Assembly (NCBI RefSeq): GCF_900176005.1
Contig: NZ_LT838272.1
Location: forward strand, 1,197,587-1,261,586
Reading direction: 5' to 3'
DNA length: 64,000 nt
Origin: Thermanaeromonas toyohensis ToBE
Lineage (GTDB): Bacteria > Bacillota > DSM-521 > Neomoorellales > Neomoorellaceae
Positions 14,529 through 34,028 of this stretch are shown here, in pieces. The position numbers and the translations under genes are program-made. The notes below the pieces were generated by a model. That model saw nothing but the letters and a program-made list of their open reading frames with translations. It was not told the origin of the DNA and did not search any database. Within the stretch, counting starts at the first letter, position 1; each line of letters starts with the position of its first letter.

Positions 14529-14549
14529 AACATCTTTGGGTGGAGTGAA

Positions 14550-17263: not shown

Positions 17264-18286
17264 ATGTGGCGCAAATGGCTTATTAGTGTGCTAATAATAG
17301 TCGTGGCCATTAGTTTAGCTGCCTGTTCGGCTCAACAATCCTCTCAAAAGGTAAACCAACAGCCGGCTACAGGGCAGCCAGCTACTACTGAAGCTGGGAA
17401 AGGCCAGGGCACAGTAGCAAAGGATGATAAAAATATAAAAGTAGGTATCGTAGTAAATGGCCAAGGGAACTTCTTTAACGCAGGGATATTTCAGGAGACC
17501 CAGCGGCTGGTAAAAGAAAAGGGCGGGACACCTGTTGCTCTTGATAGCCTGGGTCAGCGCGAGAAGATGCTAAGCGATATCGAGACTCTCATACAGCAGA
17601 ATGTAGACGCGTTAATCGTTCTGTTAGGTGATCCCACCTTCCTGGAGCCTGCTCTTAAGAAGGCTAAAGAGAAAAACATCCCGTGGATTAGTGTGGCTGC
17701 TGGCTTCCATCCGCTTGTTGATCTTGAGATAGATTCCAACGACTGGGCTATGGGAGCCAAGGTTGCTGCTTACATGGCTGCGCGGCTAGGGGGGAAGGGT
17801 AAGATCGTAGAAATTTATGGGGATCTTATTTTGCCTACCAGAGCTAGGGCTGAGGCGCTTCGAGCAGTCCTTAAAGAATATCCTGAAATCCAGATTGTTG
17901 AGCGTCATGCCTATGCTTGGCCTGGCTTCCTTGAGGATTGTCGGAAGTGGATGGAAACGGTATTACAAAAATACCCGAAACCGGGAGACATTCAAGCCGT
18001 GTTTGCCGCCTTTGACGGTGCAGGCATAGGAGCCGCTCAAGCTATCGAGGCTGCTGGGCGTAAAGAGATATTCGTAGTTGGGATAGATGGAGATCCCTTA
18101 GCCTATGAAAACATGCGCAATAAGGGTGTATTTGCTGCAACTGCAGCTCATGACCTAAAGGGTATGGCCGAAAAGGCTGTTGAATGGGCATTTAGGATGG
18201 CTAAAGGTGAGAAACCGCCTGTTAAGATGATGTTTATTGATAGCCCACTTATTACCCAGGAGAATGTTCCACCAGCTACCAAGTAA
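17264..18286 (+). CDS. Sugar-type ABC transporter substrate-binding lipoprotein
   Basis: A basic N-terminus, hydrophobic stretch and the lipobox LAAC with cysteine C21 mark a membrane-anchored lipoprotein. A Ser/Gln/Thr-rich linker (about 22-55) precedes a periplasmic-binding domain of the ribose/galactose type (KVGIVVNGQGNFFNAG at about 60-75, later VVGIDGDPLAYENM). It captures the substrate outside the membrane and delivers it to the permease encoded downstream. The ATG follows AAAGGAGG. The 205 bases upstream hold several GGAGG stretches but no convincing gene. A sugar or sugar acid is the likely ligand given dgoK and the aldolase. Confidence 0.92.
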   Translation: MWRKWLISVLIIVVAISLAACSAQQSSQKVNQQPATGQPATTEAGKGQGTVAKDDKNIKVGIVVNGQGNFFNAGIFQETQRLVKEKGGTPVALDSLGQREKMLSDIETLIQQNVDALIVLLGDPTFLEPALKKAKEKNIPWISVAAGFHPLVDLEIDSNDWAMGAKVAAYMAARLGGKGKIVEIYGDLILPTRARAEALRAVLKEYPEIQIVERHAYAWPGFLEDCRKWMETVLQKYPKPGDIQAVFAAFDGAGIGAAQAIEAAGRKEIFVVGIDGDPLAYENMRNKGVFAATAAHDLKGMAEKAVEWAFRMAKGEKPPVKMMFIDSPLITQENVPPATK

Positions 18287-18325: not shown

Positions 18326-18350
18326 GGGTGCCACCTTACGGGTGGCACCC
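18326..18350 (+). other. Intercistronic stem-loop after the binding-protein gene
   Basis: GGGTGCCACC (18326-18335) and GGTGGCACCC (18341-18350) form a perfect 10-bp stem with a five-base loop. There is no T run after it, so it is not a full intrinsic terminator. Such stems after binding-protein genes often protect the upstream mRNA and give more binding protein than ATPase. Confidence 0.7.
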
Positions 18351-18379: not shown

Positions 18380-19900
18380 TTGGAAGGCAATAGCTATGTC
18401 CTTGAGATGAAGAATATTTCTATGCAGTTTCCCGGAGTCAAAGCCCTGGACAACGTAGATTTTTCCGTAGCGCGGGGTGAGATCCACGCCCTGGTGGGAG
18501 AGAACGGCGCTGGTAAGTCTACGTTAATAAAGATCTTGGGCGGGGTCTACCTGCCAACGAGCGGCGAGATCCTTGTCGAGGGCAAGAAAGTAACCTATAG
18601 TTCCCCGCAGGAAGCTGCTGCAGCAGGAATAAGTATAGTGCACCAAGAGCTAAATTTGGTGCCTTATATGTGTGTGGCGGAGAACCTGTTTATGGGGCGT
18701 TCCCTGCCCAAGAACAAGTGGGGTATGGTTAATTGGAGTGAACTCTACCGGAAGGCTGCAGAGTTGTTAACGGTGGTTGGCCTCCAGGATCTTGTACGTT
18801 ACCCTGCGGGCCGCCTGAGTGTAGCTCAGCAACAGCTTCTCCAGATTGGGCGCGCGGTTTCTTTTGGAGCCAAAATAGTGGTATTTGACGAGCCTACGGC
18901 CTGTCTGAGCCGTAGCGAAGTAGAGAATCTCTTTAGAGTTATCAGGTCTTTAAAAGAGCGGGGAACATCTATCATTTACGTGTCTCACCGGCTAGAAGAA
19001 ATATTTGAACTTGCCGATAGAGTAACTGTCCTGAGAGACGGTAAAAGAGTAGGCGTGCACGAAATAAATCAAGTCTCCCCACAACAGATCATAAGTCTAA
19101 TGCTCGGAAAAGAATTGAGTAAGGAGAGACGACGACAAAGTTACGTTCAGGATGAGGTGGTACTTCGGGCAGAAGGGCTTTGCTCGGACACAGGTGTAAG
19201 AGATGTGAGTTTCGAACTGCGTAAAGGAGAAGTAGTAGGGCTAGCAGGAGTGGTAGGTTCGGGCCGAACGGAGGTTGCGCGACTGCTTTTTGGCGTAGAC
19301 AAGCTGACGAGTGGTCGAATTTTTGTAGGAGAGGAACAGATTTTTCCCCCCAATATAAGGAAAGCAATTAGAGCCGGATTGGCCTTCGTACCGGAGGATA
19401 GGCGTAACCAGGGATTAGTCTTAAATATGACAGTAAAAGAGAATGCGAGCTTGGCTTTCTTAAAGAACTTCGCCCGCTATGGTTTTATAAGCCATGCAAA
19501 AGAAAAAGAAAGAGTGCAAGGCCTGATCCGAACCCTTTCCATAAGGCCGCCGGAAGCTAGCAGGATAGTGAAATATCTCAGTGGTGGCAATCAACAGAAG
19601 GTAGTGTTGGCTAAGTGGCTAGCTGGTGCGAAACCGAAAGTGGTAATCTTTGATGAACCTACTCAAGGCATAGACGTTGGAGCAAAAGCTGAAGTTCACC
19701 AGCTTATCGATAATCTAGCGCGCGAAGGTGCGGGGATCCTCCTCATATCCTCGGATATACAAGAACTCTTGAGTCTTTGTGACCGCATTTTAGTTATGGT
19801 AAGGGGTAAGATTGTCAAGTGTCTCAGTCGCGAGGAAGCGACTGCGAGTACGATTTTGGCGTACGCTATGAGAAAGGAGAATAGTGCGGAATATGCCTAG
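18380..19900 (+). CDS. Sugar ABC transporter ATP-binding protein (RbsA/MglA-like, two ATPase domains)
   Basis: The 506-residue protein contains two ABC domains, as in RbsA/MglA. The first has Walker A GENGAGKST near residue 40, a signature region LSVAQQQLLQIGRAV and Walker B VVFDEPTA. The second has a degenerate Walker A, GVVGSGRTE, the signature LSGGNQQKVVLAKWL and Walker B VVIFDEPTQGIDVGA. It powers import with the permease encoded next. The start is TTG at 18380 after a G-rich stretch. The end overlaps the permease gene by 17 bases. As is usual for carbohydrate uptake transporters of this class, only one permease gene follows. Confidence 0.94.
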   Translation: MEGNSYVLEMKNISMQFPGVKALDNVDFSVARGEIHALVGENGAGKSTLIKILGGVYLPTSGEILVEGKKVTYSSPQEAAAAGISIVHQELNLVPYMCVAENLFMGRSLPKNKWGMVNWSELYRKAAELLTVVGLQDLVRYPAGRLSVAQQQLLQIGRAVSFGAKIVVFDEPTACLSRSEVENLFRVIRSLKERGTSIIYVSHRLEEIFELADRVTVLRDGKRVGVHEINQVSPQQIISLMLGKELSKERRRQSYVQDEVVLRAEGLCSDTGVRDVSFELRKGEVVGLAGVVGSGRTEVARLLFGVDKLTSGRIFVGEEQIFPPNIRKAIRAGLAFVPEDRRNQGLVLNMTVKENASLAFLKNFARYGFISHAKEKERVQGLIRTLSIRPPEASRIVKYLSGGNQQKVVLAKWLAGAKPKVVIFDEPTQGIDVGAKAEVHQLIDNLAREGAGILLISSDIQELLSLCDRILVMVRGKIVKCLSREEATASTILAYAMRKENSAEYA

Positions 19901-20822
19901 TGTTCTGCGGAAATACGGTACGCTTATAGGGTTTCTTGTACTATGTGTTATATTTTCCTTTCTCTCCCCTGTCTTCCTAACCGTTGATAACCTAGTGATG
20001 GTTTTGCTGCAAGGAAGTATGTTAACAATCATCGCTTTAGGTACCACAGTGGTAATGGCTGCTGGCGGCTTCGATATGTCTTTCGGTTCTGTATGTGGCC
20101 TGATTGGTGTTGCGTTGGCAGGGATGTTGGTGAAAGGTGTACCTATTCCATTAGCGATTTTAATAAGCCTGGCAATGGGGGCAGCCTTTGGTTGCGTAAA
20201 TGGGATACTAGTAGCTGTATTTGGTATAGCAGATTTCATCGCAACTCTTTCGACTATGTCAATAGCTCGGGGACTTAACTATTACTATACAAGAGGGGAA
20301 CCCATCTTCATGGGGATACCGCCAGAGTTTAAGATTATCGGGCAGGGCAAGATCGGAATAATCGGGTATCCGGTACTAATAATGCTAGCAGTCCTTGTGA
20401 TATTGTATGTGTTTATGAATCACACTGTAACAGGTAGGCAGATTTACGCAGTCGGTGGAAATAAAACTGCTGCGCGATTGTCCGGTATCAATGTTAGATG
20501 GATTAGAATATTTTCATTCATAATAGGGGGTTTAGCAGCAGCTCTTACCGCCGTTATAGTCACATCAAGGTTAGGGTCTGGACAGCCCACCGCTGGTGAG
20601 GGGTTCCTACTGGACGGCTTGGCAGCAGTGTTTCTTGGGATGACTATGTTTAAGGAAGGGGAACCCCACATTTCGGGTACTTTTATAGGAGCTCTGATTA
20701 TGGGTGTTTTAGTGAACGGGCTAAACTTACTTGGAGTGCAATACTTCTTTCAGGATATATTGAAAGGATTGATTATCCTCGCCGCTGTTGGTCTTACAGC
20801 AACCGGCAAACCCAAAGACTAG
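19884..20822 (+). CDS. Sugar ABC transporter permease (RbsC-like)
   Basis: The 312-residue protein is strongly hydrophobic, with about eight to ten membrane segments. It shows the family texts IALGTTVVMAAGGFDMSFGS near residues 50-70 and GRQIYAVGGNKTAARLSGIN near 185-205, the conserved cytoplasmic loop that contacts the ATPase. The start may be GTG at 19884 or ATG at 19893; the ribosome site AAAGGAG lies at 19873-19879. It completes a binding protein-ATPase-permease importer. Confidence 0.93.
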   Translation: MRNMPSVLRKYGTLIGFLVLCVIFSFLSPVFLTVDNLVMVLLQGSMLTIIALGTTVVMAAGGFDMSFGSVCGLIGVALAGMLVKGVPIPLAILISLAMGAAFGCVNGILVAVFGIADFIATLSTMSIARGLNYYYTRGEPIFMGIPPEFKIIGQGKIGIIGYPVLIMLAVLVILYVFMNHTVTGRQIYAVGGNKTAARLSGINVRWIRIFSFIIGGLAAALTAVIVTSRLGSGQPTAGEGFLLDGLAAVFLGMTMFKEGEPHISGTFIGALIMGVLVNGLNLLGVQYFFQDILKGLIILAAVGLTATGKPKD

Positions 20823-20891: not shown

Positions 20892-21995
20892 ATGGAAAAG
20901 CCGCTTTTGATGATTCCTGGACCCTGCGCTCTCGAACGGGAAGTTTGCGAGGCCATGAGCTGGCAGCCTGTACCCCATTATGGACGCGAATGGGTAGAAG
21001 AGTTCAACCGGGTTCGAGAGTCTTTAAAGCCGCTCTTTGGTACTACTGAGGGCAAAATATATATTACTGTAGGCTCAGGACATGCTGGGATTGAAGCAGG
21101 AATAAACGCTATCGCGGCTGAGGGTGATCGGCTCCTAGTAGTAAACAACGGTTTTTTTGGTGAAAGGATAGTGTGGATAGCTCGCAATTACGGTATAGAA
21201 GTTGTAGAACTTAGGAGCGAATGGGGTGAGCCAGTAGACCCGGAGGCGGTAAGGGATGCCCTCGATAGGGATCCAATGATAAAAGCATTGGCTGTAGTGC
21301 ATGGGGAAACCTCTACGGGGGTGTTAAACCCAATAAAAGAAATAGGCAAAATCGCTTGCGAGCGGGAAGTACTCCTCTTTGTGGACGCTATTTGTTCAGT
21401 AGGGGGTACTGAATTCCTGATGGATGAGTGGGGGGTTGACCTGTGTGTAGCGGCCTCTCAGAAAGGTCTTTCAGCGCCGGCGGGGCTGGTAATATTAGCT
21501 GTCCGGCAGAAGGTGTGGGATAACCTGAAGAAGCGTAAAAAGCGGCCTGTCGGTTGGTACTTGAACGTGGAAGTGTGGCGGCATTTTGAAGAAAGCCAAG
21601 GAGATTTTCAACCTTACGGGATTACAATGGCGGTAAACAACGTAAGGGCTTTACAGGTTAGCCTAGACCAGATGTATCGTGAAGGCCTGGAAAATCGCTT
21701 TCGTAGGCATCACGAGATTTCTCGGTATATAAGAGATGGGCTTGCTTCTCTTGGTTTGGAATTGTTTGCGCGTGGAGAGCCACTCCCCCTGGTTACGGTG
21801 AGCAAGTGCCCGCAAGGGATCGAAGCGGAGAAACTGGTGACGCTCCTTAGGAAGAGGTATGATATCTATATTACAGGCGGGCTGGGACCTTATAAAGAAA
21901 AAACCTTTCGCGTAGGACATATGGGGCCCTTAGCGGTGCCAGAGGTTGCAGACTACTTCCTGGCAGCGTTGAAGGATTGCCTGCAGCAGCTATAG
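20892..21995 (+). CDS. Class V PLP-dependent aminotransferase (alanine-glyoxylate/purine-catabolism type)
   Basis: The 367-residue protein matches the alanine:glyoxylate/serine:pyruvate aminotransferase group. It has PLLMIPGPCAL at the start, VGSGHAGIEAGINA, the aspartate in LLFVDAICSVGG, and the PLP lysine in ASQKGLSAPAGL. It transfers amino groups between a small amino acid and a 2-oxo acid such as glyoxylate. The upstream frame extends to 20835, but the ATG at 20892 follows AGGAGGC and gives the standard N-terminus. Position directly behind a sugar-type ABC importer and before a redox cluster suggests a nitrogen-containing substrate or product, which is inference. Confidence 0.87.
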   Translation: MEKPLLMIPGPCALEREVCEAMSWQPVPHYGREWVEEFNRVRESLKPLFGTTEGKIYITVGSGHAGIEAGINAIAAEGDRLLVVNNGFFGERIVWIARNYGIEVVELRSEWGEPVDPEAVRDALDRDPMIKALAVVHGETSTGVLNPIKEIGKIACEREVLLFVDAICSVGGTEFLMDEWGVDLCVAASQKGLSAPAGLVILAVRQKVWDNLKKRKKRPVGWYLNVEVWRHFEESQGDFQPYGITMAVNNVRALQVSLDQMYREGLENRFRRHHEISRYIRDGLASLGLELFARGEPLPLVTVSKCPQGIEAEKLVTLLRKRYDIYITGGLGPYKEKTFRVGHMGPLAVPEVADYFLAALKDCLQQL

Positions 21996-22012
21996 GTGAG
22001 GTGGCAGTGTGT

Positions 22013-22759
22013 ATGATCTTTGTACTGGGTATATGCGGTAGCCCGCGCAAAGGTAACAGTTATTATCTATTGGAAAAGGCCTTGGAGTCGGCGCGGGAGG
22101 TAGCCCCGAAAGAGGTAAAGACGGAGCTTTACTCGGTAAGAGGGAAAAAGTTTGCGCCATGTATCTCCTGTTTCAAGTGCGGAGAGCTTCAGGGCGAATG
22201 CGTTATCAAGGATGATTTCCAGGAGCTGAGGGAGAAGTGGGTAGAAGCAGACGTTATCATTTACTCTGTACCTGTGTATCACATGGGGATCCCCGCGCAG
22301 CTTAAAGCATTTATTGATCGTCTAGGAAACAGTTTATTCGGACGTTATTCTAACCTGTTCCCAGGGGAGGCTAAATTACCGAGAAGTTTGAAGGTGATTG
22401 GAGCGATAGCCCAAGGAGCACACTTATACTCTGGCCAGGAGCATACCTTGACAGATCTTATAAATCACGCCCTAGTTATGGGTTGCGTTCCCGTAACCGG
22501 TGATATGTGGGAGACATACATTGGCGCCGGAGCATGGACGTATAACGATGTGGGCAGGAATGTGCTGGCGGATAAAAGTGAAGAAAGTAGTTTGGATATG
22601 CGGGTTGCCTTAAGGGGGACGGCTTCGCTTGCCCGGCGGGCAGTAGAGCTGGCTATCATTCTTAAATCGGGAGGAAAGGTAGAAGCTAAGCGGCTAGAAG
22701 TTGACCCAGTTTATATTCCATTTCTGGCTCGGGTAAGAGGAGAAGTCACTAGTCAATAA
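22013..22759 (+). CDS. Flavodoxin-like NAD(P)H-dependent FMN reductase / iron-sulfur flavoprotein family
   Basis: The 248-residue product has the flavodoxin-like start FVLGICGSPRKGNSYYLLE, an FMN phosphate-binding loop, followed by FAPCISCFKCGELQGECVIKDD. The cysteine spacing CxxCxxC plus one more cysteine is like that of iron-sulfur flavoproteins. VYHMGIPAQLKAFIDRL is the family's second FMN loop. It probably moves electrons with a bound FMN. The ATG at 22013 is preferred over the upstream GTG and TTG codons because it follows GGTGAGG and gives the usual N-terminus. The substrate is unknown. Confidence 0.8.
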   Translation: MIFVLGICGSPRKGNSYYLLEKALESAREVAPKEVKTELYSVRGKKFAPCISCFKCGELQGECVIKDDFQELREKWVEADVIIYSVPVYHMGIPAQLKAFIDRLGNSLFGRYSNLFPGEAKLPRSLKVIGAIAQGAHLYSGQEHTLTDLINHALVMGCVPVTGDMWETYIGAGAWTYNDVGRNVLADKSEESSLDMRVALRGTASLARRAVELAIILKSGGKVEAKRLEVDPVYIPFLARVRGEVTSQ

Positions 22760-22992
22760 AGTAAAAAATGGGGTGGAAGGTTGGGAAGAGGGCATAAGTG
22801 AAAAATTTAGGAGCACTGGAAATTTGACGGCGAATTCGTAATCGGGTGGTTTGCTTTCCCCCGGGGCTTAAAATGGCTAAATGACGGGATAAAGGGCAAG
22901 TTCAAGCCATATTGTTGCATTTAAGAAAAAGGGTTCAGTTACTAGACTGGGGTGGCACTGCCACTTATTATCGTACCAAGGAGGTTAACCTT

Positions 22993-23421
22993 ATGGGTAA
23001 GATAACAGTTGTTGCGGAGAACTGTACCGGTTGCAAGGCATGTATGATGGTGTGCACCCTTGTTCATGAGAAGGCTCCAAGCTATAAGAGGTCACGGGTA
23101 AAAGTGAAAAAGAACGATGAGTATGAAGAGTTTCTTCCCCTAATTTGCCGCCATTGTGAGGAAGCTCCTTGTGTGGACGTGTGTCCTGTCGGGGCCCTAT
23201 GGAGAGATACAAGAGGAGCGATTGTGCTTAACAGTAGCGAATGCACGGGTTGCCGTCAATGTGTGGATGTGTGTCCCTATGGAGCACTATTTATCGATGA
23301 GGAATTGGGTACCGCATATAAGTGCGATCTTTGTAATGGGGAACCAGCGTGTATAAAAGTGTGTCAAGTAGCAGGGGCACTCAGATACGAGATTGAGGGA
23401 GGTTTGGATGGAAATGAGTAG
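22993..23421 (+). CDS. Poly-ferredoxin electron-transfer subunit (four [4Fe-4S] sites) linked to aldehyde oxidoreductase
   Basis: The 142-residue protein carries four cysteine groups of the DmsB/HycB type: CTGCKACMMVC, CRHCEEAPCVDVCP, CTGCRQCVDVCP and CDLCNGEPACIKVC. It should hold up to four [4Fe-4S] clusters and pass electrons. The ATG at 22993 follows AAGGAGG. The end overlaps the aldehyde oxidoreductase start by 14 bases, so it is the likely partner subunit of that enzyme. About 230 bases upstream are non-coding; a half-match (GTTGCATTT, 22914-22922) to the IclR palindrome is seen there. Confidence 0.9.
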   Translation: MGKITVVAENCTGCKACMMVCTLVHEKAPSYKRSRVKVKKNDEYEEFLPLICRHCEEAPCVDVCPVGALWRDTRGAIVLNSSECTGCRQCVDVCPYGALFIDEELGTAYKCDLCNGEPACIKVCQVAGALRYEIEGGLDGNE

Positions 23422-25327
23422 AAGGGGAGTTATACTTCATGTTGACCTAACCGAAGGAAGGATATGGCGGGAAGAGATACCGAGGGAATGGGAGGCTGCC
23501 TACCTGGGTTCTCGCGGCATAAATGCCCGGCTGTTGTGGGACCTGCTAAAAGCGGGTGTGGAGCCCCTAAGTAAGGATAATGTACTTATTTTTGGAGCAG
23601 GCAAGTTAAGCGGTACGGGAGCTCCATCAAGCGGGCGAACCACAATAACGTGTAAGAGCCCGGCTACCAACCTGTACATGAAGGTAAATGTTGGAGGCCA
23701 CTGGGGAACGGAACTAAGGTATGCGGGTTACGACCATTTAGTGATACATGGAGCGGCCGATAAGCCTGTTTATCTTTATATAAATGATACTACTGTAGAA
23801 ATCCGGGATGCAGGACACTTGTGGGGTAAAGATGTACGTGAAACTACTAGAGCTATAAGGCACGAAATAGGAGATGAGGAAGTTGAAGTTGCCTGTATTG
23901 GCCAAGCCGGTGAAAATCTGGTCAAGATGGCAGGGATCATGTGCTCCGTTTATAACGCTGGCGCTAGGGGCGGCGTGGGAGCTGTAATGGGATCTAAGAA
24001 ACTCAAAGCAGTAGCGGTTAAGGGGAGCGGAGCCATTTACCTAGCAGACCCCGAAAGGTATTGGCAGGTGGCGCGCGAATGTGTAGACGGGCTTTTGGCG
24101 GAATCGGGTATAGGAGGTCTGCACGCCTACGGTACCTCTGGCTCTATTCTGCCGCTTAACGAATTAAAGTGCTTCGCTGTATACAACTTTCGCGGTGGAG
24201 CACATCCGGAAATGGAAAAGATTAGCGGGTTAGCTCTGGTGGAACAGGGTTACCTGAAACGCAAGGTAGGTTGTAACAGCTGTATTATTGGCTGTCACCG
24301 GTTTACGGTAATAGAGAAAGGAGAATATGCTGGGACTTATTCGGGAGGTCCGGAACTGGAAACATTAGGTTCATTAGGCTGCGGTTGCGGCGTATTTGAC
24401 CTTGAAGCCATCTTGAAGGCTAACGAATTATGTAATATCTACGGTTTAGATACCATATCGGTCGGTAATGTAATTGCATGGGCAATGGAATGTTTCGAAC
24501 GCGGAGTACTAACCAAAGAAGATACAGGCGGTCTTGACCTTTCCTGGGGGAACGGAGAAGCCGTAATTGAGCTGGTTAATCAAATCGCCTTCCGTCGTGG
24601 TCTCGGGAATTTATTGGCTGAGGGTGTTCGGCGGGCGGCTGAACAAGTTGGAAAGGACTCTTGGAAATGGGCCATAGAAGTTAAGGGGTTAGAACAATCC
24701 CGGGTGGATACGCGGGCAGCAATGGCGTATGCTCTGGCCTTTGCGGTTAATCCCAGGGGAGCAGATCACTTGCATACAGAAACCTTTGCGGAATTCGGTT
24801 TAAGCCCGGAAGCGCGGAAGGTAATTGCAGACATTACGGGCAACGAAAAATACGCTAACCCTTATCTGGTGGAAAAGAGAGCAGAAATTGTCCGTTGGCA
24901 CGAAGATTGCTATGCAGTAACTGATTGCCTGGGCTTCTGTGCCTTTACGACAACAGCACTCTTCGGTGTTACTCCAGATAGAATGGCTAGGCTATTTAGT
25001 GCGGCTACTGGAATAGAAATTACGGAAGAAGAAATTATGAAGGCAGGGCGGAGGATCATTAACCTTGAAAAAGCTTTCAACGTTCGTGAAGGGGCTACAC
25101 GTGCAGACGACCGCGCCCCCTGGCGTATCTTAAATGAAAGATCCCCAGATCTGCCCGCAGAAGCAACGGTGCTTACGGAAGAAAAATTAAACCAAATGCT
25201 TGATAAGTATTACACTCTGCACAACTGGGACTTAAAAACAAGCTGGCCAAAGAAAGAAACCCTTTTAGAGCTTGGGTTAGAGGATGTGGCTGAGGAACTA
25301 GAAAAACTAGGTAAGATTCCCAGCTAG
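23408..25327 (+). CDS. Tungsten-containing aldehyde:ferredoxin oxidoreductase family protein
   Basis: AOR enzymes oxidise aldehydes to acids with a tungsto-bispterin cofactor and one [4Fe-4S] cluster. The 639-residue protein has the N-terminal domain text GRTTITCKSPATNLYMKVN and GGHWGTELRYAGYDHLVI, the cluster cysteines VGCNSCIIGC with the fourth cysteine in TDCLGFC, and a C-terminal GLEDVAEELEKLGKI end. The start is the ATG at 23408 after GGGAGG. A poly-ferredoxin gene upstream and a MoaD-like gene about 1.2 kb downstream support a pterin-dependent enzyme. The aldehyde is not known. The dedicated ferredoxin subunit suggests the multi-subunit AOR type rather than the single-gene archaeal type. 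Confidence 0.93.
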   Translation: MEMSRRGVILHVDLTEGRIWREEIPREWEAAYLGSRGINARLLWDLLKAGVEPLSKDNVLIFGAGKLSGTGAPSSGRTTITCKSPATNLYMKVNVGGHWGTELRYAGYDHLVIHGAADKPVYLYINDTTVEIRDAGHLWGKDVRETTRAIRHEIGDEEVEVACIGQAGENLVKMAGIMCSVYNAGARGGVGAVMGSKKLKAVAVKGSGAIYLADPERYWQVARECVDGLLAESGIGGLHAYGTSGSILPLNELKCFAVYNFRGGAHPEMEKISGLALVEQGYLKRKVGCNSCIIGCHRFTVIEKGEYAGTYSGGPELETLGSLGCGCGVFDLEAILKANELCNIYGLDTISVGNVIAWAMECFERGVLTKEDTGGLDLSWGNGEAVIELVNQIAFRRGLGNLLAEGVRRAAEQVGKDSWKWAIEVKGLEQSRVDTRAAMAYALAFAVNPRGADHLHTETFAEFGLSPEARKVIADITGNEKYANPYLVEKRAEIVRWHEDCYAVTDCLGFCAFTTTALFGVTPDRMARLFSAATGIEITEEEIMKAGRRIINLEKAFNVREGATRADDRAPWRILNERSPDLPAEATVLTEEKLNQMLDKYYTLHNWDLKTSWPKKETLLELGLEDVAEELEKLGKIPS

Positions 25328-25343
25328 AGGAGGTACAGATGTC

Positions 25344-26471
25344 ATGTATAAGATCACTACGAATGATGTGGAGCCGTTGCTGGAAGGTTTGGCTATATTG
25401 GGAACTGGAGGGGGTGGCAATCCCCAATGGGGTCGAGCTATTTTGGAAGCTGACTTGGCCCGAGGCCGGGAGCTGGTGCTGATAGATCCTGATGAGGTAT
25501 CCGATGAAGCTCTGGTCGTTTGCGGAGGTATAATGGGTTCGGTCAAGACGCTCGAACAGTGGAGTATTAGAAGCCTGCTTGAGCGCTGGGAAAATAAATT
25601 TGAATTGTTGGAAGCCACAAGAGCTATGGAAAGATATCTGGGGCGGAAGGTAGATTTCGTGGTCCCCTTTGAAGTTGGCGGACTTAACACTCCTGTGATG
25701 CTATCCCTGGCTGCAAGGTTAGGAGTAGCATGTGTGGACGGGGACGCTTTAGGTCGCTCGGCTCCAGAGACACAGATGACAAGCTTTATCGGTCATGGAA
25801 TATCCCTTACGCCGATGCCCCTAGTGGATGCACACGGCAATTGTATCATAGTTACCGAACAAGTTGATCCGGTATTTGCGGATGAGGTAGGACGGTGGAT
25901 GGTAACCAAAGGTGGTGGCCTCGGGGCTAATAATCATTACCCTATGTCGGGTGCTCAACTTAAGGAGGCTGTGGTTCCTCGAACCATTAGCAAGGCGCTG
26001 GAGTTGGGGAGAGCAGTAATAAAAGCAAGAAGTGGGAGTGGTGACCCTGTCGCCGAAGTAACTAAGGCGTTGGGAGGTTGGAAGCTTTTTCAAGGCGTGG
26101 TAAACAAGGTAGAGGGTGAAGATAAGGGCGGATTCTACCTTACTAATGTGTGGCTGAAGGGTACTGGAGAGTATAGCAACGCCACGGCGGACTTAGTAAT
26201 TAAGAACGAAACGATGGTGCTGTGGGTAGACGGGCAATTGAAGGCGGTATTTCCTGACCTGGTATGCATGTTAGACCCTGTAACGGGCAAAGGGATCATG
26301 AGTGTTGACATTATAGAAGGCACAGCCATGGTCCTGGTGGGCGTACCCTGCCACCAGCGTCTCAGAGAGGCCATGGCAACACCTGAGGGTCGCCGAGCCT
26401 TTGGGCCTGCCAGATTTGGTTATCCAGAATTGGGTTATATACCGATTGAAGACCTTACCAATAATGCCTGA
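25344..26471 (+). CDS. DUF917 family protein (S-methyl-thiohydantoin desulfurase-like)
   Basis: The 375-residue product has the DUF917 hallmark LAILGTGGGGNPQWG near the N-terminus, EVGGLNTPV in the middle, and a C-terminal domain with MLDPVTGKGI. Members are often linked to hydantoinases, and one is reported to act on a thiohydantoin, but the family's general function is poorly known. The ATG at 25344 lies ten bases after GAGGAGG and 17 bases after the AOR stop, so it belongs to the same operon. A role in degrading a cyclic nitrogen compound is possible but unproven. Confidence 0.82.
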   Translation: MYKITTNDVEPLLEGLAILGTGGGGNPQWGRAILEADLARGRELVLIDPDEVSDEALVVCGGIMGSVKTLEQWSIRSLLERWENKFELLEATRAMERYLGRKVDFVVPFEVGGLNTPVMLSLAARLGVACVDGDALGRSAPETQMTSFIGHGISLTPMPLVDAHGNCIIVTEQVDPVFADEVGRWMVTKGGGLGANNHYPMSGAQLKEAVVPRTISKALELGRAVIKARSGSGDPVAEVTKALGGWKLFQGVVNKVEGEDKGGFYLTNVWLKGTGEYSNATADLVIKNETMVLWVDGQLKAVFPDLVCMLDPVTGKGIMSVDIIEGTAMVLVGVPCHQRLREAMATPEGRRAFGPARFGYPELGYIPIEDLTNNA

Positions 26472-26491
26472 CCTTGGAAAGGAGGTTACTG

Positions 26492-26761
26492 GTGATTAGG
26501 GTCACCCTGAAATTTGTTGGCGGAAGTGCTTCTAAGTTTAAGATGACTCCAGAGCAGATGGAAATTGAACCTAACACCACGGTTGGCCAATTGATAGATA
26601 TTCTCCGTGGCGAGAGTTCAAGAACAGGAACTGCGGGGCAGCCTAATTTACCCATGGCGGTAATAGTGAACGGTCGTAGCATTTATACCTTAAAGGGACT
26701 GGAGACCGTTCTTAAGGACGGAGACACTGTGGTCTTTGTTCCTTTCCTGGCAGGAGGGTAA
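26492..26761 (+). CDS. MoaD/ThiS-like ubiquitin-fold sulfur carrier
   Basis: The 89-residue protein has a beta-grasp pattern and ends in FVPFLAGG, with the terminal diglycine used for thiocarboxylate formation. GTG at 26492 follows AAAGGAGG. MoaD supplies sulfur for the dithiolene of molybdo- or tungstopterin. Such paralogues are common next to AOR genes, so it may be specialised for tungstopterin. No MoaE or MoeB is nearby. Confidence 0.82.
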   Translation: MIRVTLKFVGGSASKFKMTPEQMEIEPNTTVGQLIDILRGESSRTGTAGQPNLPMAVIVNGRSIYTLKGLETVLKDGDTVVFVPFLAGG

Positions 26762-26795
26762 ACTTATTGAACGTCAATAGCTTGAGGTGCTCAAA

Positions 26796-27797
26796 ATGAT
26801 AAACAACACAATGTTAGACAACAAAATAGTAGACCCCGAGAAGAAATTAGTGGCTATCGCGGGGTGGGTACTTGAGCAGTGTTTTCGTGTAAAACCTGAA
26901 GAGACCGTCTTAGTAGTAACAGATGGTGGTGTACCGAGGGTAGCGAACGCTTTTTGGGAGGCAGCTCGGGAAAGAGTACAGGAAGTTCTTCTGCTGAGGT
27001 TTGAGCCCCGGCCTGAACATGGCTGCGAGCCTCCCGCAGGTGTGGCTGCGGCCATGAAAGCCTCAGATGTTGTCCTGTTGCCGACCGTAAAATCTCTTAC
27101 CCACACCAGGGCAAGAAGAGAAGCCTGTGCTGCTGGCGCGCGGATCGCTAGTATGCCTATGATAACTGAAGAAATTATGCAACGAGCTTTGGATGTGGAT
27201 TATGAGAAGTTGAAAAGAATTACGTACATTTGCGCTGACCTACTCGGGAAGGGGCAAGCATTACGCCTCACTGCCCGGAACGGTACAGACCTAACGTTAG
27301 ACCTAGGCGGACGACAAGGTGTGGTTGATACGGGGGATCTGTGGCAAAAAGGTTCTTGTAGCAACTTGCCAGCAGGTGAAGCCTGTATTGCACCTGTAGA
27401 AGGGTCGGCGCGGGGGATCGTGGTTCTGGACGGTTCCCTTGCGGGCTGGGGCAAGCTTGAAGAGCCTGTGAGATTGAGGGTTGAGGAGGGCCGCGTTACT
27501 GGAGTAGAGGGGGGGAAGGCTGCAGATTGGTTAAGGGAGACGTTAGAAAAGTATGGGGCTCTGTCAGGTAATATAGCCGAGTTAGGAATTGGGACTAATG
27601 AGAAAGCAGTGGTAACTGGTAATATTTTGGAAGATGAGAAAGTTTTGGGAACTGTGCATATAGGTTTGGGGGATAACAAGGCATTAGGTGGAAAGGTAGA
27701 AGCTGGTATTCATTTAGATGGAGTTATATTGAACCCTTCTGTGGAAATTGATGGAAGGTTAGTGATAGTGGAAGGGCAATTAATGATTACTATATGA
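26796..27797 (+). CDS. M29-type aminopeptidase/NicX-like metalloprotein
   Basis: The 333-residue protein resembles leucyl aminopeptidase (M29) and the related ring-opening dioxygenase NicX. It has a C-terminal IAELGIGTNEKAVVTGNIL, then the metal-site text LGTVHIGLGDN, with E and H ligands. M29 enzymes release N-terminal amino acids; NicX-like relatives open pyridine rings. The motifs do not separate these options. The ATG at 26796 after GAGG is preferred to the GTG nine bases upstream. It overlaps nothing upstream and its stop lies 38 bases before the next start. Confidence 0.75.
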   Translation: MINNTMLDNKIVDPEKKLVAIAGWVLEQCFRVKPEETVLVVTDGGVPRVANAFWEAARERVQEVLLLRFEPRPEHGCEPPAGVAAAMKASDVVLLPTVKSLTHTRARREACAAGARIASMPMITEEIMQRALDVDYEKLKRITYICADLLGKGQALRLTARNGTDLTLDLGGRQGVVDTGDLWQKGSCSNLPAGEACIAPVEGSARGIVVLDGSLAGWGKLEEPVRLRVEEGRVTGVEGGKAADWLRETLEKYGALSGNIAELGIGTNEKAVVTGNILEDEKVLGTVHIGLGDNKALGGKVEAGIHLDGVILNPSVEIDGRLVIVEGQLMITI

Positions 27798-27835
27798 AAC
27801 CCCAAACACCTTATTATTATGAAAGGAGGAAAAGC

Positions 27836-28987
27836 ATGAAATCACGGGAACGTGTTCTAATGGCGTTACAGCACCAGGAACCAGATAGGGTTCCATTTGA
27901 TCTTGGGGGAACAGTAACTAGTGGTATCCACAGGATAGCTTACAAGAACCTACTTGATTATTTGGGTATTAAGAAGGACGAGATTAGGATTGCAGAGATC
28001 CACCAGCAATTAGCAGATGTACATGAGGACGTTCTCCAGCGGCTAAAGGTGGATTTTAGACCTGTTTTTTCCAAACTGCCTGAGGGGTGGAAACCCGAGT
28101 TTAAGGAAGACGAAGAGTATATCCGCTTTAAGGATCAATGGGGAATTGGGTGGAGAATGCCTAAAGATGGGGGACTTTATTTTGATCTAGATACCCACCC
28201 TTTTGCCGGCTTTACTACCGTAGACGAGGTGGTAAATTATCGAGTACCCGATCCGGCTGATCGAAGCCGCCTGCGCGGGGTAAAAGAGGAGGCCCAGCGG
28301 CTAGCCGATACTACTGGAGCTGCGTTGTGTCTAGCTGGAGTATCGGCCGGCTTTCTGGAAATGGCCTATTGGCTTCGGGGTTATGAGCAATTCTTCGTGG
28401 ACCTGGTATGGGACCCTAAAATGGCCAACGCCATTCTAGACAAAACGGTTGAAATTAAGATGAGATACTGGGAGATGGCCCTGAAAGAGTTAGGGGACAT
28501 TATTGATATAGTTGTAGAGGCTGATGACTTTGCTTCTCAATTTGGACTTATTATTTCACCTGAGACCTACCGCAAATTTATTAAGCCGCGCCAGCAAGAA
28601 TTATTTGCTACCATTAAGAAGAATTCCAATGCGTATATATGCTTCCACTCGTGCGGCGCCGTTTATGAGCTTATCCCGGACTTGATAGAAGTTGGCATAG
28701 ATGCTCTGAACCCGGTACAAGTTAGTGCCGCTAATATGGATACCAAAAAGCTTAAGAAAGAGTTTGGAGATGTGCTCACTTTTTGGGGTGGTGGAGTCGA
28801 TACTCAAAACGTCTTAAACCACGGTACACCGCAACAAGTAAGGGATGAGGTAAAAAGGAGAATAGATGACCTGGCACCAGGAGGAGGATTTATTTTTACT
28901 CCTGTGCATAATGTCCAGCCTGATGTGCCCCCTGAAAACTATATGGCTATGTGGGAGACGTGGGAGGAATATGGCAAATATAGGTAG
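27836..28987 (+). CDS. Uroporphyrinogen decarboxylase (URO-D) superfamily protein, possible corrinoid methyltransferase type
   Basis: The 383-residue protein begins SRERVLMALQHQEPDRVPFDLGG, the usual entry of URO-D-like methyltransferases, and ends with PGGGFIFTPVHNVQPDVPPENY. The metal-type text CFHSCGAVYELIPDLIEVG lies in the second half. True heme-pathway HemE is unlikely because no tetrapyrrole genes are linked. MtaA/CmuA-like members move methyl groups between corrinoid proteins and coenzymes. No corrinoid protein gene is adjacent. The ATG at 27836 follows AAAGGAGG, and an upstream in-frame ATG at 27794 lies inside the previous gene's end. Confidence 0.85.
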   Translation: MKSRERVLMALQHQEPDRVPFDLGGTVTSGIHRIAYKNLLDYLGIKKDEIRIAEIHQQLADVHEDVLQRLKVDFRPVFSKLPEGWKPEFKEDEEYIRFKDQWGIGWRMPKDGGLYFDLDTHPFAGFTTVDEVVNYRVPDPADRSRLRGVKEEAQRLADTTGAALCLAGVSAGFLEMAYWLRGYEQFFVDLVWDPKMANAILDKTVEIKMRYWEMALKELGDIIDIVVEADDFASQFGLIISPETYRKFIKPRQQELFATIKKNSNAYICFHSCGAVYELIPDLIEVGIDALNPVQVSAANMDTKKLKKEFGDVLTFWGGGVDTQNVLNHGTPQQVRDEVKRRIDDLAPGGGFIFTPVHNVQPDVPPENYMAMWETWEEYGKYR

Positions 28988-29024: not shown

Positions 29025-30143
29025 ATGATTGTTGGGGTGCCCAAAGAAATAAAAACTAATGAGAACCGGGTGGGGTTGGTCCCCGCAGGTGTTTCTGCGT
29101 TAACTAAAGCCGGACACAGAGTTATAGTTCAAAAATCGGCCGGGGAAGGCAGCGGTATTCCCGATGTAGAGTATGCTCGGGCAGGGGCCGAAATGGTAGA
29201 TACCTTGGAAGAGGTTTACAGGGAAGCTGAAATGATAGTAAAGGTAAAAGAACCCCAACCTCAAGAGTATGAACTTTTTCGGGAAGGACAGATTTTATTT
29301 ACGTATCTCCACTTAGCTGCAGAAGAAGCCTTGACAAAATGTTTGATTGACAAAAAAGTAATCGCTATTGCTTATGAAACAGTCACAGGTCCCGATGGTA
29401 CCTTGCCGTTACTGACCCCCATGAGTGAAGTAGCCGGGAGAATGTCCGTGCAAATAGGGGCCCGGTTGCTCGAGAAGCATAATGGGGGGGCAGGGCTGCT
29501 ACTAGGAGGAGTACCTGGGGTACCGCCCGCTAGAGTTACCATCATAGGCGGAGGTGTAGTGGGGACTAATGCAGCAAAGATTGCCTTGGGAATGGGCGCT
29601 CAAGTAACAATTTTGGACATAAATCCTGATCGGCTACGATACCTTGATGATATTTTCTATGGACGGATACAGACTTTAATGTCCAATGCTTATACCATCG
29701 CCGAGGCAGTACAAGATGCTGATCTCCTGATTGGGGCTGTATTAATTCCTGGTGCCAGAGCTCCCAAGCTAGTGACTGAAGAAATGGTTGAGGCTATGAG
29801 GCCGGGTTCCGTTATCGTAGATGTGGCTATTGATCAGGGAGGATGTATTGAGACTGTAGACCGGGTGACTACACATGCAGAACCGACGTATGTAAAGCAT
29901 GGCGTAGTCCACTATTCTGTAGCTAATATTCCCGGTGCAGTTCCTCGCACTTCTACCTTTGCCTTGACTAATGTAACTTTACCTTACGTGTTAGAGTTAG
30001 CTAATAAGGGCTGGTTAAAAGCTATAAGGGAAAATCCAGGTCTTGCCAACGGCGTTAATATTATAGACGGCAAAGTGACCTGTCCAGGAGTAGCAGAAGC
30101 TTTTGGACTACCTTATTACCCGTTGCAAAATATTGTGGCATAA
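29025..30143 (+). CDS. ald: Alanine dehydrogenase
   Basis: The enzyme interconverts L-alanine and pyruvate with NAD+ and ammonia. The 372-residue length is standard. It starts [20 protein letters not shown], has the substrate-binding text [11 protein letters not shown] and YETV, the Rossmann motif [20 protein letters not shown] near 175-194, and VDVAIDQGG with its conserved aspartate. It may supply NADH from alanine or recycle the amino group produced by the aminotransferases in this region. It lies 37 bases after the URO-D-like gene. Confidence 0.96.
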
Positions 30144-30319: not shown

Positions 30320-31417
30320 ATGGAAATCTTTGCCTATCTTCAAAAATACGACTACGAACAATTGGTGCTTTGCCATGACAAAGATACCTCCCTTAAGGCG
30401 ATAATATGCATCCATGATACCACGTTAGGTCCTGCCTTGGGCGGTGTCAGGATGTGGCCATATGCCTCAGAAGATGAAGCTATCCTTGATGTTCTGCGTC
30501 TAGCCCGGGGTATGACGTACAAAAATGCAGCTGCAGGACTTAACTTGGGAGGCGGTAAAGCTGTCATAATTGGTGATCCCAGAAAAGACAAAACCGAAGA
30601 GTTGCTCCGGGCCTTTGGTCGATTTGTAGATACCTTAGGTGGCAGGTACATTACTGCAGAAGACGTCGGTACAAGCGTTGAGGATATGGAGTATATCCGC
30701 GCCGAGACCAAATATGTAGCTGGTTTACCAGAGTCAAGCGGGGATCCATCACCTTTTACGGCCTATGGTACTTATATGGGGATGAAAGCGGCTGCGTTAT
30801 TTGTGTGGGGTAACAAATCCTTAGAGGGGAAGATTGTAGCTGTTCAAGGCTTGGGCCATGTAGGGTACGCCTTATGCCAATATTTGGCCGCAGAGGGCGT
30901 AAAACTTATAGTTACCGATCTATACCAGGAGAATGTAGAGCGTGCCGTAAAAGAACTGGGCGCTACAGCAGTAAGTCCCGAAGATATTTATAGCGTAGAA
31001 TGCGATATCTACTCGCCTAATGCCTTAGGCGGGGTGCTCAATGATGATACTATTCCCAAGTTAAAATGCAAGATTATAGCTGGCGCGGCCAATAACCAGC
31101 TTAAAGAGGATCGGCATGGTGCCATGCTTCAGTCGCTGGGGATAGTATATGTACCCGATTATATCATCAATGCGGGTGGAGTCATAAATATTGCAGAAGA
31201 ACTCCGGGGGTATGACCCAGAAAAAGCCAAAAGGCGGGTCGCTCGGATCTACGATAATGTCCTTAGGGTCCTTAAGAAAGCGGAAGAAGATAAAGTACCT
31301 ACTTATGTGGCGGCCGATCGCGTGGCCGAGGAACGGTTAGAGCGGATAAAAAAACTACATTCTTTTTATCTACCTAACGCGACTTCTATGTATAGTTCGT
31401 CTGGATTTAGAAGGTGA
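30320..31417 (+). CDS. Leucine dehydrogenase (branched-chain amino acid dehydrogenase)
   Basis: The 365-residue protein fits the Glu/Leu/Phe/Val dehydrogenase family at the length of leucine dehydrogenase. It has [13 protein letters not shown], the catalytic lysine in [20 protein letters not shown], and the NAD-binding text [15 protein letters not shown]. It deaminates leucine, valine or isoleucine to the 2-oxo acid. The ATG at 30320 after GGACGGAGGA is chosen over an in-frame start at 30263, which would add 19 unusual residues. The 2-oxoacid:ferredoxin oxidoreductase genes follow within seven bases, which supports a branched-chain substrate. Confidence 0.92.
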
Positions 31418-31641: not shown

Positions 31642-32709
31642 ATGGAATGTCTTCAGCTAGTTAAAGGGAACGAGGCACTGGCGGAAGCGGCAATCCTTGC
31701 GGGATGCCGCTTCTTCGCCGGATATCCGATCACGCCTCAAAACGAAATACTGGAGTATATGGCTTGGCGGCTACCCCAGGTGGGGGGCTCCTTTGTACAG
31801 GCGGAAAGTGAACTAGCAGCCATTAACATGGTCTTTGGGGCTGCAGGTGCAGGCGCGCGGGCAATGACGGCATCCTCAGGCCCGGGGATAAGTCTTATGC
31901 AAGAAGGAATTTCTTATTTGGCTGCTGCTGAGCTGCCTGCAGTGATCGCTAATATGGCTCGGGGTGGGCCGGGTCTCGGAGGCATTCAAGCAGCACAGGG
32001 CGACTACTTTCAAGCAACTAAGGGTGGAGGTCATGGGGACTACCGAGTAATTGTCCTGGCACCAGCGTCTATTCAGGAAATGGTTGATATCACATTTACT
32101 GCTTTTGAGCTGGCTGACAGGTACAGAAATCCTGTAATGATACTTGCCGACGCTATTCTGGGGCAAGCTATGGAACCAGTCAGGCTAAAAGACCCGGGAA
32201 CACAGGAAACGAGCGATTTCAAGCCCTGGGCAACGACGGGATGGGAGGGAAACAGACCTCGAAACGTTATTTACACTTTGTATCTAGAGCCAGAAGCATT
32301 AGAAGGGTTGAATTTGCGATTGCAACGCAAGTATGCTGAAATCTGCCAGAAAGAAAAGCGGTGGGAAGCAGTAGGATTAGCGGATGCGCAGGTAGCCTTG
32401 GTAGCCTATGGAACTGCATCACGCATATGTCGGCGTATAGTTGAGGTAACGAAGCAGCAGGGCTTGAGAGTGGCACTTATTCGTCCTATTACCCTATGGC
32501 CTTTTCCAAGCGAGGCTTTTGAAGAAGCTCTTGCGGCTGGTATCACTAAGTTTTTGGTAGTAGAAATGAACTATGGCCAAATGGTGGAAGATGTTCGCTT
32601 GGCAGTTAATGGTCGTGGAAAAGTTGCTTTTTACGGCCGGGGCGGTGGTATGATCCCAACACCGAAAGAAATTATAGCTGCACTTCAGAAGCTTATCCAG
32701 GAGGGATAG
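31642..32709 (+). CDS. 2-oxoacid:ferredoxin oxidoreductase alpha subunit (VOR/KOR type)
   Basis: The 355-residue alpha subunit starts LVKGNEALAEAAILAGCRFFAGYPITPQNE-like (split here: GNEALAEAAILAG, FFAGYPITPQNEI), with ASSGPGISLMQEGISYL and GDYFQATKGGGHGDYR. These are the standard texts of the KorA/VorA group. The enzyme oxidatively decarboxylates a 2-oxo acid to acyl-CoA and reduces ferredoxin. Linkage to leucine dehydrogenase, Buk and Ptb favours branched-chain 2-oxo acids over 2-oxoglutarate, but the sequence alone does not decide. Confidence 0.9.
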   Translation: MECLQLVKGNEALAEAAILAGCRFFAGYPITPQNEILEYMAWRLPQVGGSFVQAESELAAINMVFGAAGAGARAMTASSGPGISLMQEGISYLAAAELPAVIANMARGGPGLGGIQAAQGDYFQATKGGGHGDYRVIVLAPASIQEMVDITFTAFELADRYRNPVMILADAILGQAMEPVRLKDPGTQETSDFKPWATTGWEGNRPRNVIYTLYLEPEALEGLNLRLQRKYAEICQKEKRWEAVGLADAQVALVAYGTASRICRRIVEVTKQQGLRVALIRPITLWPFPSEAFEEALAAGITKFLVVEMNYGQMVEDVRLAVNGRGKVAFYGRGGGMIPTPKEIIAALQKLIQEG

Positions 32710-32718
32710 CTTACTCAT

Positions 32719-33471
32719 ATGAAGGTTAGGTTTGGTCGGCCTAAAGCCCTCACAGACGTGCCAACTCATTATTGCCCAGGTTGCACCCATGGTATTATCC
32801 ATCGTTTAGTAGCAGAGGTGATCGACGAACTGGGGATTCAATCTAAGACAGTGGGGGTAGCAGCGGTCGGATGTTCTGTCCTTTCCCATAGATACTTCAA
32901 TGTCGATATGCAGGAAGCAGCCCACGGGCGAGCTCCTGCAGTAGCCACTGGGATTAAAAGAGTATTGCCTGATCGTGTGGTTTTTACCTACCAGGGCGAT
33001 GGAGACCTAGCCTCCATCGGGCTTTCAGAGATTGTACATGCAGCTGCACGAGGAGAAAACATTACGGTGATTTTTGTAAACAACGCTACTTATGGCATGA
33101 CAGGCGGTCAAATGGCACCGACCACCCTCCTGGGGCAGAAAGCCACTACTGCACCAGAAGGACGCTTGGCTCAGACTGCCGGGTATCCTATCAGGATCTG
33201 TGAAATGCTCGCTACCCTTACCGGACCTTCCTATATTGCTCGAGTTGCAGTAAGCGCTCCCGCGCGCGTTATTACAGCCAAACGTGCAATTAGAAAAGCC
33301 TTTGAAGCGCAGATCAAAGGTGACGGTTTTTCCCTCGTAGAGGTGTTGTCTACATGCCCCATCAACTGGGGCTTATCGCCTGTAGAGGCCTTAAAATGGC
33401 TGGAAGACAACATGATACGTTATTACCCTTTGGGCGAATTTAAGAACTCGGAGGGGGCAACCCTTAAGTGA
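32719..33471 (+). CDS. 2-oxoacid:ferredoxin oxidoreductase beta subunit (TPP-binding)
   Basis: The 250-residue beta subunit binds thiamin diphosphate. It has [13 protein letters not shown] near the start, the TPP motif [13 protein letters not shown] with [16 protein letters not shown], and ends with a proline/leucine-rich tail. The cysteines at the start and in VGCSVLSHR are those of the proximal cluster. It forms the catalytic centre with the alpha subunit. It begins 9 bases after the alpha stop and its own stop overlaps the gamma start. Confidence 0.92.
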
Positions 33472-34028
33472 GACAGGAGATAATTATTGCCGGGTTCGGG
33501 GGCCAGGGTGTAATGCTCATCGGGGAGATTTTAGCTTATGCGGGTATGTTAGAGGGGAAGCGCGTTAGTTGGATGCCGTCTTATGGACCTGAAATGCGCG
33601 GGGGAACCGCGAATTGCTCTGTAGTTCTTACTGACGAGGAAGACATAGGTGTCCCCGTAGTAGCCGAACCCACGGTGGTGATCGCCATGAGCGAACCGGC
33701 ATTACAAAAGTTTGCACCCCTGGTGGTTTCCGGAGGCCTGTTAATATTCAGCGAAGGCTTGGCTCCACAGAATATAAGGAAAGATGTGGTCCTTATGGAA
33801 ATACCGGCAACAGATATTGCTGTCAGGCTCGGGGAGGCCCGGGTAGCGAACATGGTATTCCTTGGAGCTCTGGTTGGAGCGACGGGATGTGTGAGCCCCA
33901 AAGCTGTAATTTCCTCGCTCAAGGAAAAGCTCCCCCAGCGGTATCACAGCCTTCTACCTGTAAATGAAAGGGCAATAAATGAAGGTATTAGGCTTGCACA
34001 TAAACTGCGAGGTGTGGTGGGTGTATAG
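33468..34028 (+). CDS. 2-oxoacid:ferredoxin oxidoreductase gamma subunit
   Basis: The 186-residue gamma subunit begins [20 protein letters not shown] and has [20 protein letters not shown], both typical of the KorC/VorC group that helps bind CoA. Its GTG overlaps the beta stop by four bases (GTGA). It completes the delta-alpha-beta-gamma set. The end overlaps the butyrate kinase start by eight bases. Confidence 0.92.

Follow-up and report, generated by a model that had tools for sequence, protein, structure and literature searches.

An apparent regulon of Thermanaeromonas toyohensis that joins a tungsten aldehyde oxidoreductase and a DUF917 protein to a putative 2-keto-3-deoxygluconate module

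The window analysed here is a stretch of 64,000 nucleotides of Thermanaeromonas toyohensis ToBE (contig NZ_LT838272.1, positions 1,197,587 to 1,261,586, forward strand). At 20892-28987 it carries eight genes, all on the + strand, around the gene of a tungsten aldehyde:ferredoxin oxidoreductase (AOR). A sequence-only reading had listed these genes and their one-strand layout, and the list holds: all eight are open reading frames at the positions it gave, with Pfam matches to Aminotran_5, FMN_red/flavodoxin fold, 4Fe-4S protein, AFOR_N + AFOR_C, S-Me-THD (the former DUF917), ThiS, Peptidase_M29 and URO-D. Their spacing is tight, save for a gap of ~230 bases 5' of the ferredoxin gene. The unit is apparently larger than that reading stated, i.e. 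a regulon of ~22 kb (14499-36767) running from an IclR gene to a class I aminotransferase gene (Table 1). Upstream of 20892 lie the genes of the IclR regulator, a 2-keto-3-deoxy-6-phosphogluconate (KDPG) aldolase, a DGOK-type kinase and a CUT2 importer; downstream of 28987 lie those of alanine dehydrogenase, a leucine-type dehydrogenase (LeuDH), VorBAC, butyrate kinase (Buk) and, ~500 bases further, the class I aminotransferase. This content agrees with the earlier idea that an AOR, an importer (here of ribose/CUT2 type) and an IclR regulator belong to an uncommon catabolic cluster linked to nitrogen, and the sugar-acid chemistry that it suggested is supported by the kinase and aldolase genes just upstream, outside the interval it described.

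Table 1. Features of the apparent regulon (window coordinates)
Feature	Position	Strand	Remarks
IclR-family regulator	14499..15311	+	nearest NCBIfam models BhcR and KdgR, both under cut-off; same place in M. stamsii L104 (77%)
Putative IclR operator copy 1, CAACGTAGTTGGATATTATGCAAC	14505..14528	+	exact match also 5' of IclR in L104
Putative IclR operator copy 2	15337..15360	+	5' of KDPG aldolase; within larger inverted repeat
KDPG/KHG aldolase	15398..16039	+	Pfam Aldolase 131 bits; TIGR01182 167 bits, above cut-off of 156
2-keto-3-deoxygalactonokinase-type kinase (DGOK)	16054..17058	+	PF05035 129.6 bits; PfkB-type KDG kinase instead in other lineages
CUT2 (ribose-type) solute-binding protein	17264..18286	+	Peripla_BP_4; nearest solved chain 4wt7
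GC-rich strong hairpin, possible attenuator	18326..18350	.	between binding-protein and ATPase genes
CUT2 ABC transporter ATPase	18380..19900	+	70-77% identical in L050, L087, L104
CUT2 ABC transporter permease	19884..20822	+	80-84% identical in L050, L087, L104
Class V aminotransferase (alanine-glyoxylate / serine-pyruvate / pyridoxamine-pyruvate type)	20892..21995	+	
Iron-sulfur flavoprotein (presumed)	22010..22759	+	flavodoxin fold, Cx2Cx2Cx6C motif
WorS-type small subunit	22990..23421	+	16 Cys in four 4Fe-4S motifs (cluster binding predicted); directly upstream of WorL
Tungsten AOR large subunit (WorL), member of DUF917-linked clade	23411..25327	+	PF02730 259 bits, PF01314 418 bits
DUF917 / S-Me-THD protein	25344..26471	+	PF06032 + PF20906
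ThiS/MoaD-like protein (WorX)	26474..26761	+	PF02597
Short M29-type metallohydrolase	26787..27797	+	five conserved metal ligands; Peptidase_M29
URO-D superfamily protein	27794..28987	+	PF01208
Alanine dehydrogenase	29025..30143	+	TIGR00518 572 bits, above cut-off
Leu/Phe/Val/Trp dehydrogenase family protein	30323..31417	+	Trp_DH_ScyB 427 bits, under cut-off of 600
VorBAC 2-oxoacid:ferredoxin oxidoreductase, three genes	31642..34028	+	also beside G130 cluster (L174)
Butyrate kinase	33979..35103	+	TIGR02707 480 bits, above cut-off
Putative IclR operator copy 3, 2 mismatches	35404..35427	+	upstream of class I aminotransferase
Class I aminotransferase	35619..36767	+	operator copy 3 upstream; orthologues inside clusters L089, L090, L107

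To place the cluster among its relatives we scanned 84,980 species genomes and 398 genomes of the phylum, which together with the AORs of the same genome gave a tree of 111 sequences. The AOR alignment served as the marker; the M29 protein belongs to a widespread paralogous family and is a poor one, and a scan of genome contigs with it alone gave no matches. The window AOR is one of 30 sequences set apart from the rest by a branch that has full support in the Shimodaira-Hasegawa-like approximate likelihood-ratio test (SH-aLRT). A DUF917 gene lies within 7 kb on the same strand for 22 of these 30 AORs versus none of the 81 others (Fisher p = 6e-17, a nominal value as the rows share ancestry). 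At a wider distance and in a nearly identical set of 30 loci, DUF917 is present at 24 and the flavodoxin-type protein at 25, some of the loci without one or the other ending at contig edges. The members are assigned to Bacillota, Chloroflexota, Thermodesulfobacteriota/Myxococcota, Aerophobetes, Atribacterota, Bipolaricaulota and Thermotogota, many being metagenome bins whose individual phylum assignments may be wrong; a Bathyarchaeota sequence (L128) sits on a long branch and its placement is unsure.

In Moorella stamsii (locus L104, G016 contig) the gene order is identical from IclR through butyrate kinase, and the class I aminotransferase gene (81% identical) follows directly. Genome G006 has the order of the window with the importer left out, and other families and phyla have a rearranged version. 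The eight-gene arrangement is not due to chance. A search for the same gene order in other anaerobes had been suggested by the sequence-only reading, which took separate occurrence with unrelated partners as counting against its view; the genes were found to stay together. Across the clade the importer is of CUT2, BMP or Opp type and the aminotransferase of class V, class I or both; in G053 the class V aminotransferase, M29 and KDPG aldolase genes form a separate operon on the same contig. As judged by these comparisons, the gene set is real and conserved in this heat-loving anaerobe of the Moorella family and in distant relatives of several phyla. In a sub-clade of the same AORs (L171, L172, L173) DUF1177 and another ABC importer replace DUF917. 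The G006 cluster, whose permease is reduced to a similar stretch of 49 residues, seems to be decaying; in this genome (L185, L039) another contig bears a copy of the operator and a fragment of IclR close to transposase-like genes.

The best evidence on the metabolite comes from the kinase and aldolase. Genes for a kinase of 2-keto-3-deoxygluconate (KDG) type stand beside 14 of the 30 clade AORs versus 1 of the 81 others, and these loci, about half of the clade, usually have an aldolase, an aminotransferase and an importer too. The kinase family (DGOK or PfkB) and the aldolase family (KDPG or HpcH) are exchanged between lineages while the step is retained; for the PfkB kinases of relatives, KDG-kinase models are among the best matches, at scores under the cut-offs. 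Since both enzymes are replaced by unrelated families of the same reaction kind, the metabolite would be a 2-keto-3-deoxyaldonate, and the shared compound is very probably KDG or 2-keto-3-deoxygalactonate (KDGal). We recognised no sugar-acid dehydratase of the IlvD/EDD type or of the enolase superfamily (MR_MLE) in the clusters. Genome-wide, G006, G130 and G293 have a single IlvD/EDD gene apiece and lack a full-length match to MR_MLE, the best partial one reaching 50 bits (in G130). The lack of a cluster dehydratase and the single IlvD/EDD genes point to a direct 3-deoxy precursor of KDG.

An inverted motif, CAACNNNGTTGNWWWTTATGCAAC, precedes the IclR gene in both the window species and M. stamsii. 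The operator motif was built from copies 1 and 2 and the L104 copy; with up to 2 mismatches it has only three sites in the 3.33 Mb genome, all in the window (14505, 15337 and 35404), the third having come from the search, and its reversed control pattern has 0 matches. We infer that the IclR protein is the binder of this motif. As the class I aminotransferase gene has the third copy upstream of it, that gene is probably part of the regulon. Copy 1 overlaps the IclR gene at its called start; the true start probably lies further downstream. No Rfam element was found within 14000-37000, thus no known molybdenum/tungsten-cofactor riboswitch there, and promoter and terminator scans gave no more than the level of shuffled sequence. 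Elsewhere in the window, at 4716-4932, a cobalamin riboswitch scores well over the Rfam gathering score.

A Cx2Cx2Cx(5-7)C motif marks the flavodoxin-type protein of the window as well as 22 of its 24 relatives encoded next to clade AORs (window not counted), and we take the protein to be an iron-sulfur flavoprotein. The AOR layout fits class II of the tungsten oxidoreductases (WORs) as defined in PMC13328260, i.e. a large subunit, a four-cluster small subunit and a ThiS-like WorX, in view of the four Cys motifs of its small subunit and the accompanying ThiS-like protein; WorX-like proteins are known AOR companions (PMC1779556, PMC13328260). No NAD-linked WorN or WorABC subunit was recognised in the window cluster, and a WorN-like flavoprotein is present in relatives L089, L091, L092, L107 and L168. 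Thr243, Glu313 and His448 of the Pyrococcus furiosus enzyme (PfAOR) are kept (T242, E315 and H453, numbered from the protein starting at 23411), and Tyr427 is replaced by V432 with R431 adjoining; these four PfAOR residues are typical of most aldehyde-oxidising members and are not a condition of class II membership. Lys91 is invariant across the clade, whereas other AORs mostly have Asp or Glu there.

The model of the DUF917 protein is good (predicted local distance difference test, pLDDT, 91.0) and resembles only the uncharacterised 2o3i in the Protein Data Bank (PDB). The hydantoin chemistry proposed by the sequence-only reading survives as a lead for this protein only. It scores 90.8 bits against the S-methyl thiohydantoin desulfurase model (cut-off 450) and 61.4 bits against the thiohydantoin desulfurase model (cut-off 440). 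A HyuA-type hydantoinase gene is absent from the window cluster and present at 3 of the 30 clade loci, and additionally at L093 on the opposite strand.

The M29 protein is ~70-90 residues shorter than AmpT. Five residues, E182, E249, H275, H293 and D295 (A3 numbering, residue 1 at 26835), are invariant and stand at what we take to be the metal-ligand positions of M29 peptidases (Glu, Glu, His, His, Asp); E182, E249 and H275 match AmpT/AmpS in the alignment, and H293 and D295 match PepS. The nearest fold is that of NicX (template modelling, TM, score 0.83). A NicX-like (2,5-dihydroxypyridine) dioxygenase, which had been suggested from the sequence, was rejected: the protein has the metallopeptidase ligands, and Glu249 occupies the position of NicX His265, presumably an iron ligand. 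The URO-D protein, ~80% conserved between families where present in close relatives, reaches 85 bits against the MtaA/CmuA model (cut-off 235). Corrinoid methyl transfer was not adopted for it, its score being far below MtaA and no corrinoid protein gene being recognised beside it, and the degradation of a methylated compound gains no support here.

The amino-acid genes also recur. All clusters with an alanine dehydrogenase gene carry the class V aminotransferase too, a Leu/Phe/Val/Trp dehydrogenase family gene is present in clusters of several families (L039, L104, L087, L050, L057), and LeuDH-VorBAC-Buk genes border the G130 cluster as well.

We tentatively propose that the regulon serves to take up and catabolise a compound made of a sugar part and an amino-acid part, through C-N cleavage and an AOR step leading to KDG, both halves being used; we hold this as a possibility short of an expectation. 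The CUT2 importer (BMP- or Opp-type in relatives) would take up a sugar-amino acid conjugate. DUF917, aided in the window lineage by the M29-type metallohydrolase, would cut the C-N link to give the amino acid and a 3-deoxy-2-ketoaldose, which would be 3-deoxyglucosone if the substrate were an Amadori compound (a fructosyl-amino acid). The tungsten AOR (WorLS) would then oxidise this reactive aldehyde in one step to 2-keto-3-deoxygluconate or -galactonate, with electrons passing to ferredoxin and perhaps to the iron-sulfur flavoprotein. Phosphorylation by DGOK and cleavage by KDPG aldolase would yield pyruvate and glyceraldehyde-3-phosphate. The amino acid would be deaminated by the aminotransferases with the alanine and leucine-type dehydrogenases, and VorBAC and butyrate kinase could convert the 2-oxo acid to acyl-CoA, acid and ATP. 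This chain is consistent, though not proven. Its frame is moderately firm; we infer the position of the AOR upstream of KDG, and the amino-acid genes would serve the same substrate as the AOR/KDG module. DUF917 as the C-N cleaving enzyme is a guess, and so is the identity of the substrate, e.g. an Amadori compound. Cleavage of Amadori compounds yields a 3-deoxy-2-ketoaldose and an amino acid, and such a substrate would account for the amino-acid genes too. The more specific scheme, a tungsten-dependent anaerobic route for glycated (Maillard/Amadori-type) amino acids in which DUF917 releases a 3-deoxyosone, the dedicated AOR clade makes KDG and both halves are fermented, we consider rather unlikely. 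If true, it would place a glycated amino acid pathway in subsurface Bacillota, Chloroflexota and Bipolaricaulota, and would give a physiological role to DUF917 and to one orphan AOR clade.

Several points weigh against the proposal. Its support is drawn from sequence, not from biochemistry, the parts read off directly being the gene content, the conservation, the shared operator motif, the KDG-type kinase/aldolase pair and the WorLS + WorX layout. The URO-D protein has no part in the scheme, no sugar-isomerase-type deglycase or FAD amadoriase domain was recognised among the cluster proteins scanned, and the cluster showed no gene for a phosphotransbutyrylase. Three IlvD/EDD genes are present in the window's own genome, and a dehydratase could act from elsewhere. 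In L094, L095, L097, L099 and L101 DUF917 and AOR occur together without a recognised KDG module, thus their shared reaction may be something else. The residues Q429/R431/V432/E457 occur together in all 14 KDG-linked AORs versus 2 of the 16 other clade members, which would speak for the proposal, but the pattern was picked post hoc and loses significance once ancestry is corrected for (3 of 4 independent pairs, p = 0.25); it is a prediction for mutagenesis, not a result.

Other schemes share part of this evidence. An anaerobic oxidative amino-sugar pathway, in which the AOR would oxidise an aminohexose to the aldonate and one of the two aminotransferases, acting as a pyridoxal phosphate (PLP) ammonia-lyase, would give KDG for the kinase and aldolase, covers the importer, AOR, PLP enzyme, KDG kinase and aldolase and the lack of an ordinary dehydratase. 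We nevertheless judge it unlikely: both PLP proteins resemble true aminotransferases, LeuDH, VorBAC and Buk stay unexplained, and so do DUF917 and M29 unless they are deacetylases. KDG needs some source, and DUF917, among the most constant partners, might (or M29 or URO-D might) be an unrecognised aldonate dehydratase acting after oxidation of a plain aldose by the AOR, the amino-acid genes being passengers; another AOR of the same genome lies in an L-fucose operon, so that AORs do serve sugar pathways there. But the family library names no activity for DUF917 other than thiohydantoin desulfurases, and aminotransferases and amino-acid dehydrogenases are conserved inside clusters of several families beyond the window lineage, which makes plain sugar oxidation distinctly unlikely.

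That the AOR acts off the path to KDG, detoxifying or oxidising a short aldehyde that stems from amino acids or from a later aldolase step, is improbable. It would match the view of most characterised WORs (PMC13328260), the branched-chain amino acids suggested by Vor/Buk/LeuDH, whose aldehydes PfAOR-type enzymes oxidise, and the AOR of the L-fucose operon, which presumably oxidises lactaldehyde; yet DUF917 and the KDG module go with this clade in several phyla, and the clade has another residue in place of the Tyr427 of general aldehyde-oxidising WORs. Nearest to the sequence-only reading is an imidazolone/hydantoin route: DUF917 would hydrolyse a 2-substituted imidazol-4-one, e.g. a hydroimidazolone derived from 3-deoxyglucosone, ring opening would give 2-amino-3-deoxyhexonate, and an aminotransferase would make KDG. 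Such rings are substrates of the named DUF917 enzymes, and HyuA, hydantoin racemase or ATC hydrolase genes adjoin the AOR in L050, L057, L096, L102, L103, L105 and L111. We find this route very improbable, as it gives the AOR no substrate and no ring-opening hydantoinase was recognised in the window, L104, L087 and L168 clusters.

Compared with known systems, the window AOR shares with class II WORs (WorLS + WorX; PfASOR, CbGOR) the tungstopterin/4Fe-4S large subunit, the small subunit with four 4Fe-4S motifs and the ThiS-like WorX. It differs in Val and the neighbouring Arg at PfAOR Tyr427, the clade-wide Lys91, the DUF917 and iron-sulfur flavoprotein partners and the sugar-acid context, which a text search of the 2026 classification paper (PMC13328260) did not find. 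PfAOR (1aor) is the best-scoring solved relative of the clade profile, of the same family and with most of the cofactor-site residues; unlike the window AOR it has no WorS, and it is thought to use amino-acid-derived aldehydes. The kinase and aldolase families are those of the lower branch of the Entner-Doudoroff pathway (KdgK/DgoK + KDPG aldolase), here without a recognised dehydratase and with a tungsten ferredoxin-linked oxidoreductase alongside. The DUF917 protein has both S-Me-THD domains of the S-methyl thiohydantoin and thiohydantoin desulfurases and the fold of 2o3i, but scores far under the cut-offs and has other partners. Our search of open-licence papers returned nothing relevant on DUF917 with AOR, on thiohydantoin desulfurase, or on AOR with Amadori compounds or KDG.

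Of the 92 clades of tungsten oxidoreductases, only 5 include a member whose physiological role is defined (PMC13328260). For one AOR clade we can now name a constant partner (DUF917), a companion in electron transfer and, for roughly half of the members, a defined pathway downstream; together these narrow the AOR substrate to something testable. Were the substrate a glycated amino acid, the regulon would reveal by what route Maillard products in hot or buried settings become a source of carbon and nitrogen for anaerobes.

The same genome has eight further AORs (nine in total), several in pathway-specific clusters. The one in the L-fucose operon (L079, G000:C1:2254000-2273000) accompanies fucose isomerase, FGGY kinase, class II aldolase, FucU and CUT2 importer genes; it resembles the window AOR in lying within a sugar operon with a CUT2 importer but belongs to another AOR clade, and its aldehyde would arise at the aldolase step. 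Another (L082) lies with genes for a dihydroorotate dehydrogenase-like protein, an amidohydrolase and a BMP-type importer, and a third (L083) with MttB-type methyltransferase genes; the neighbours of L082, L083 and L084 collectively include a UbiD protein. AORs tied to single catabolic pathways thus seem to be a habit of T. toyohensis.

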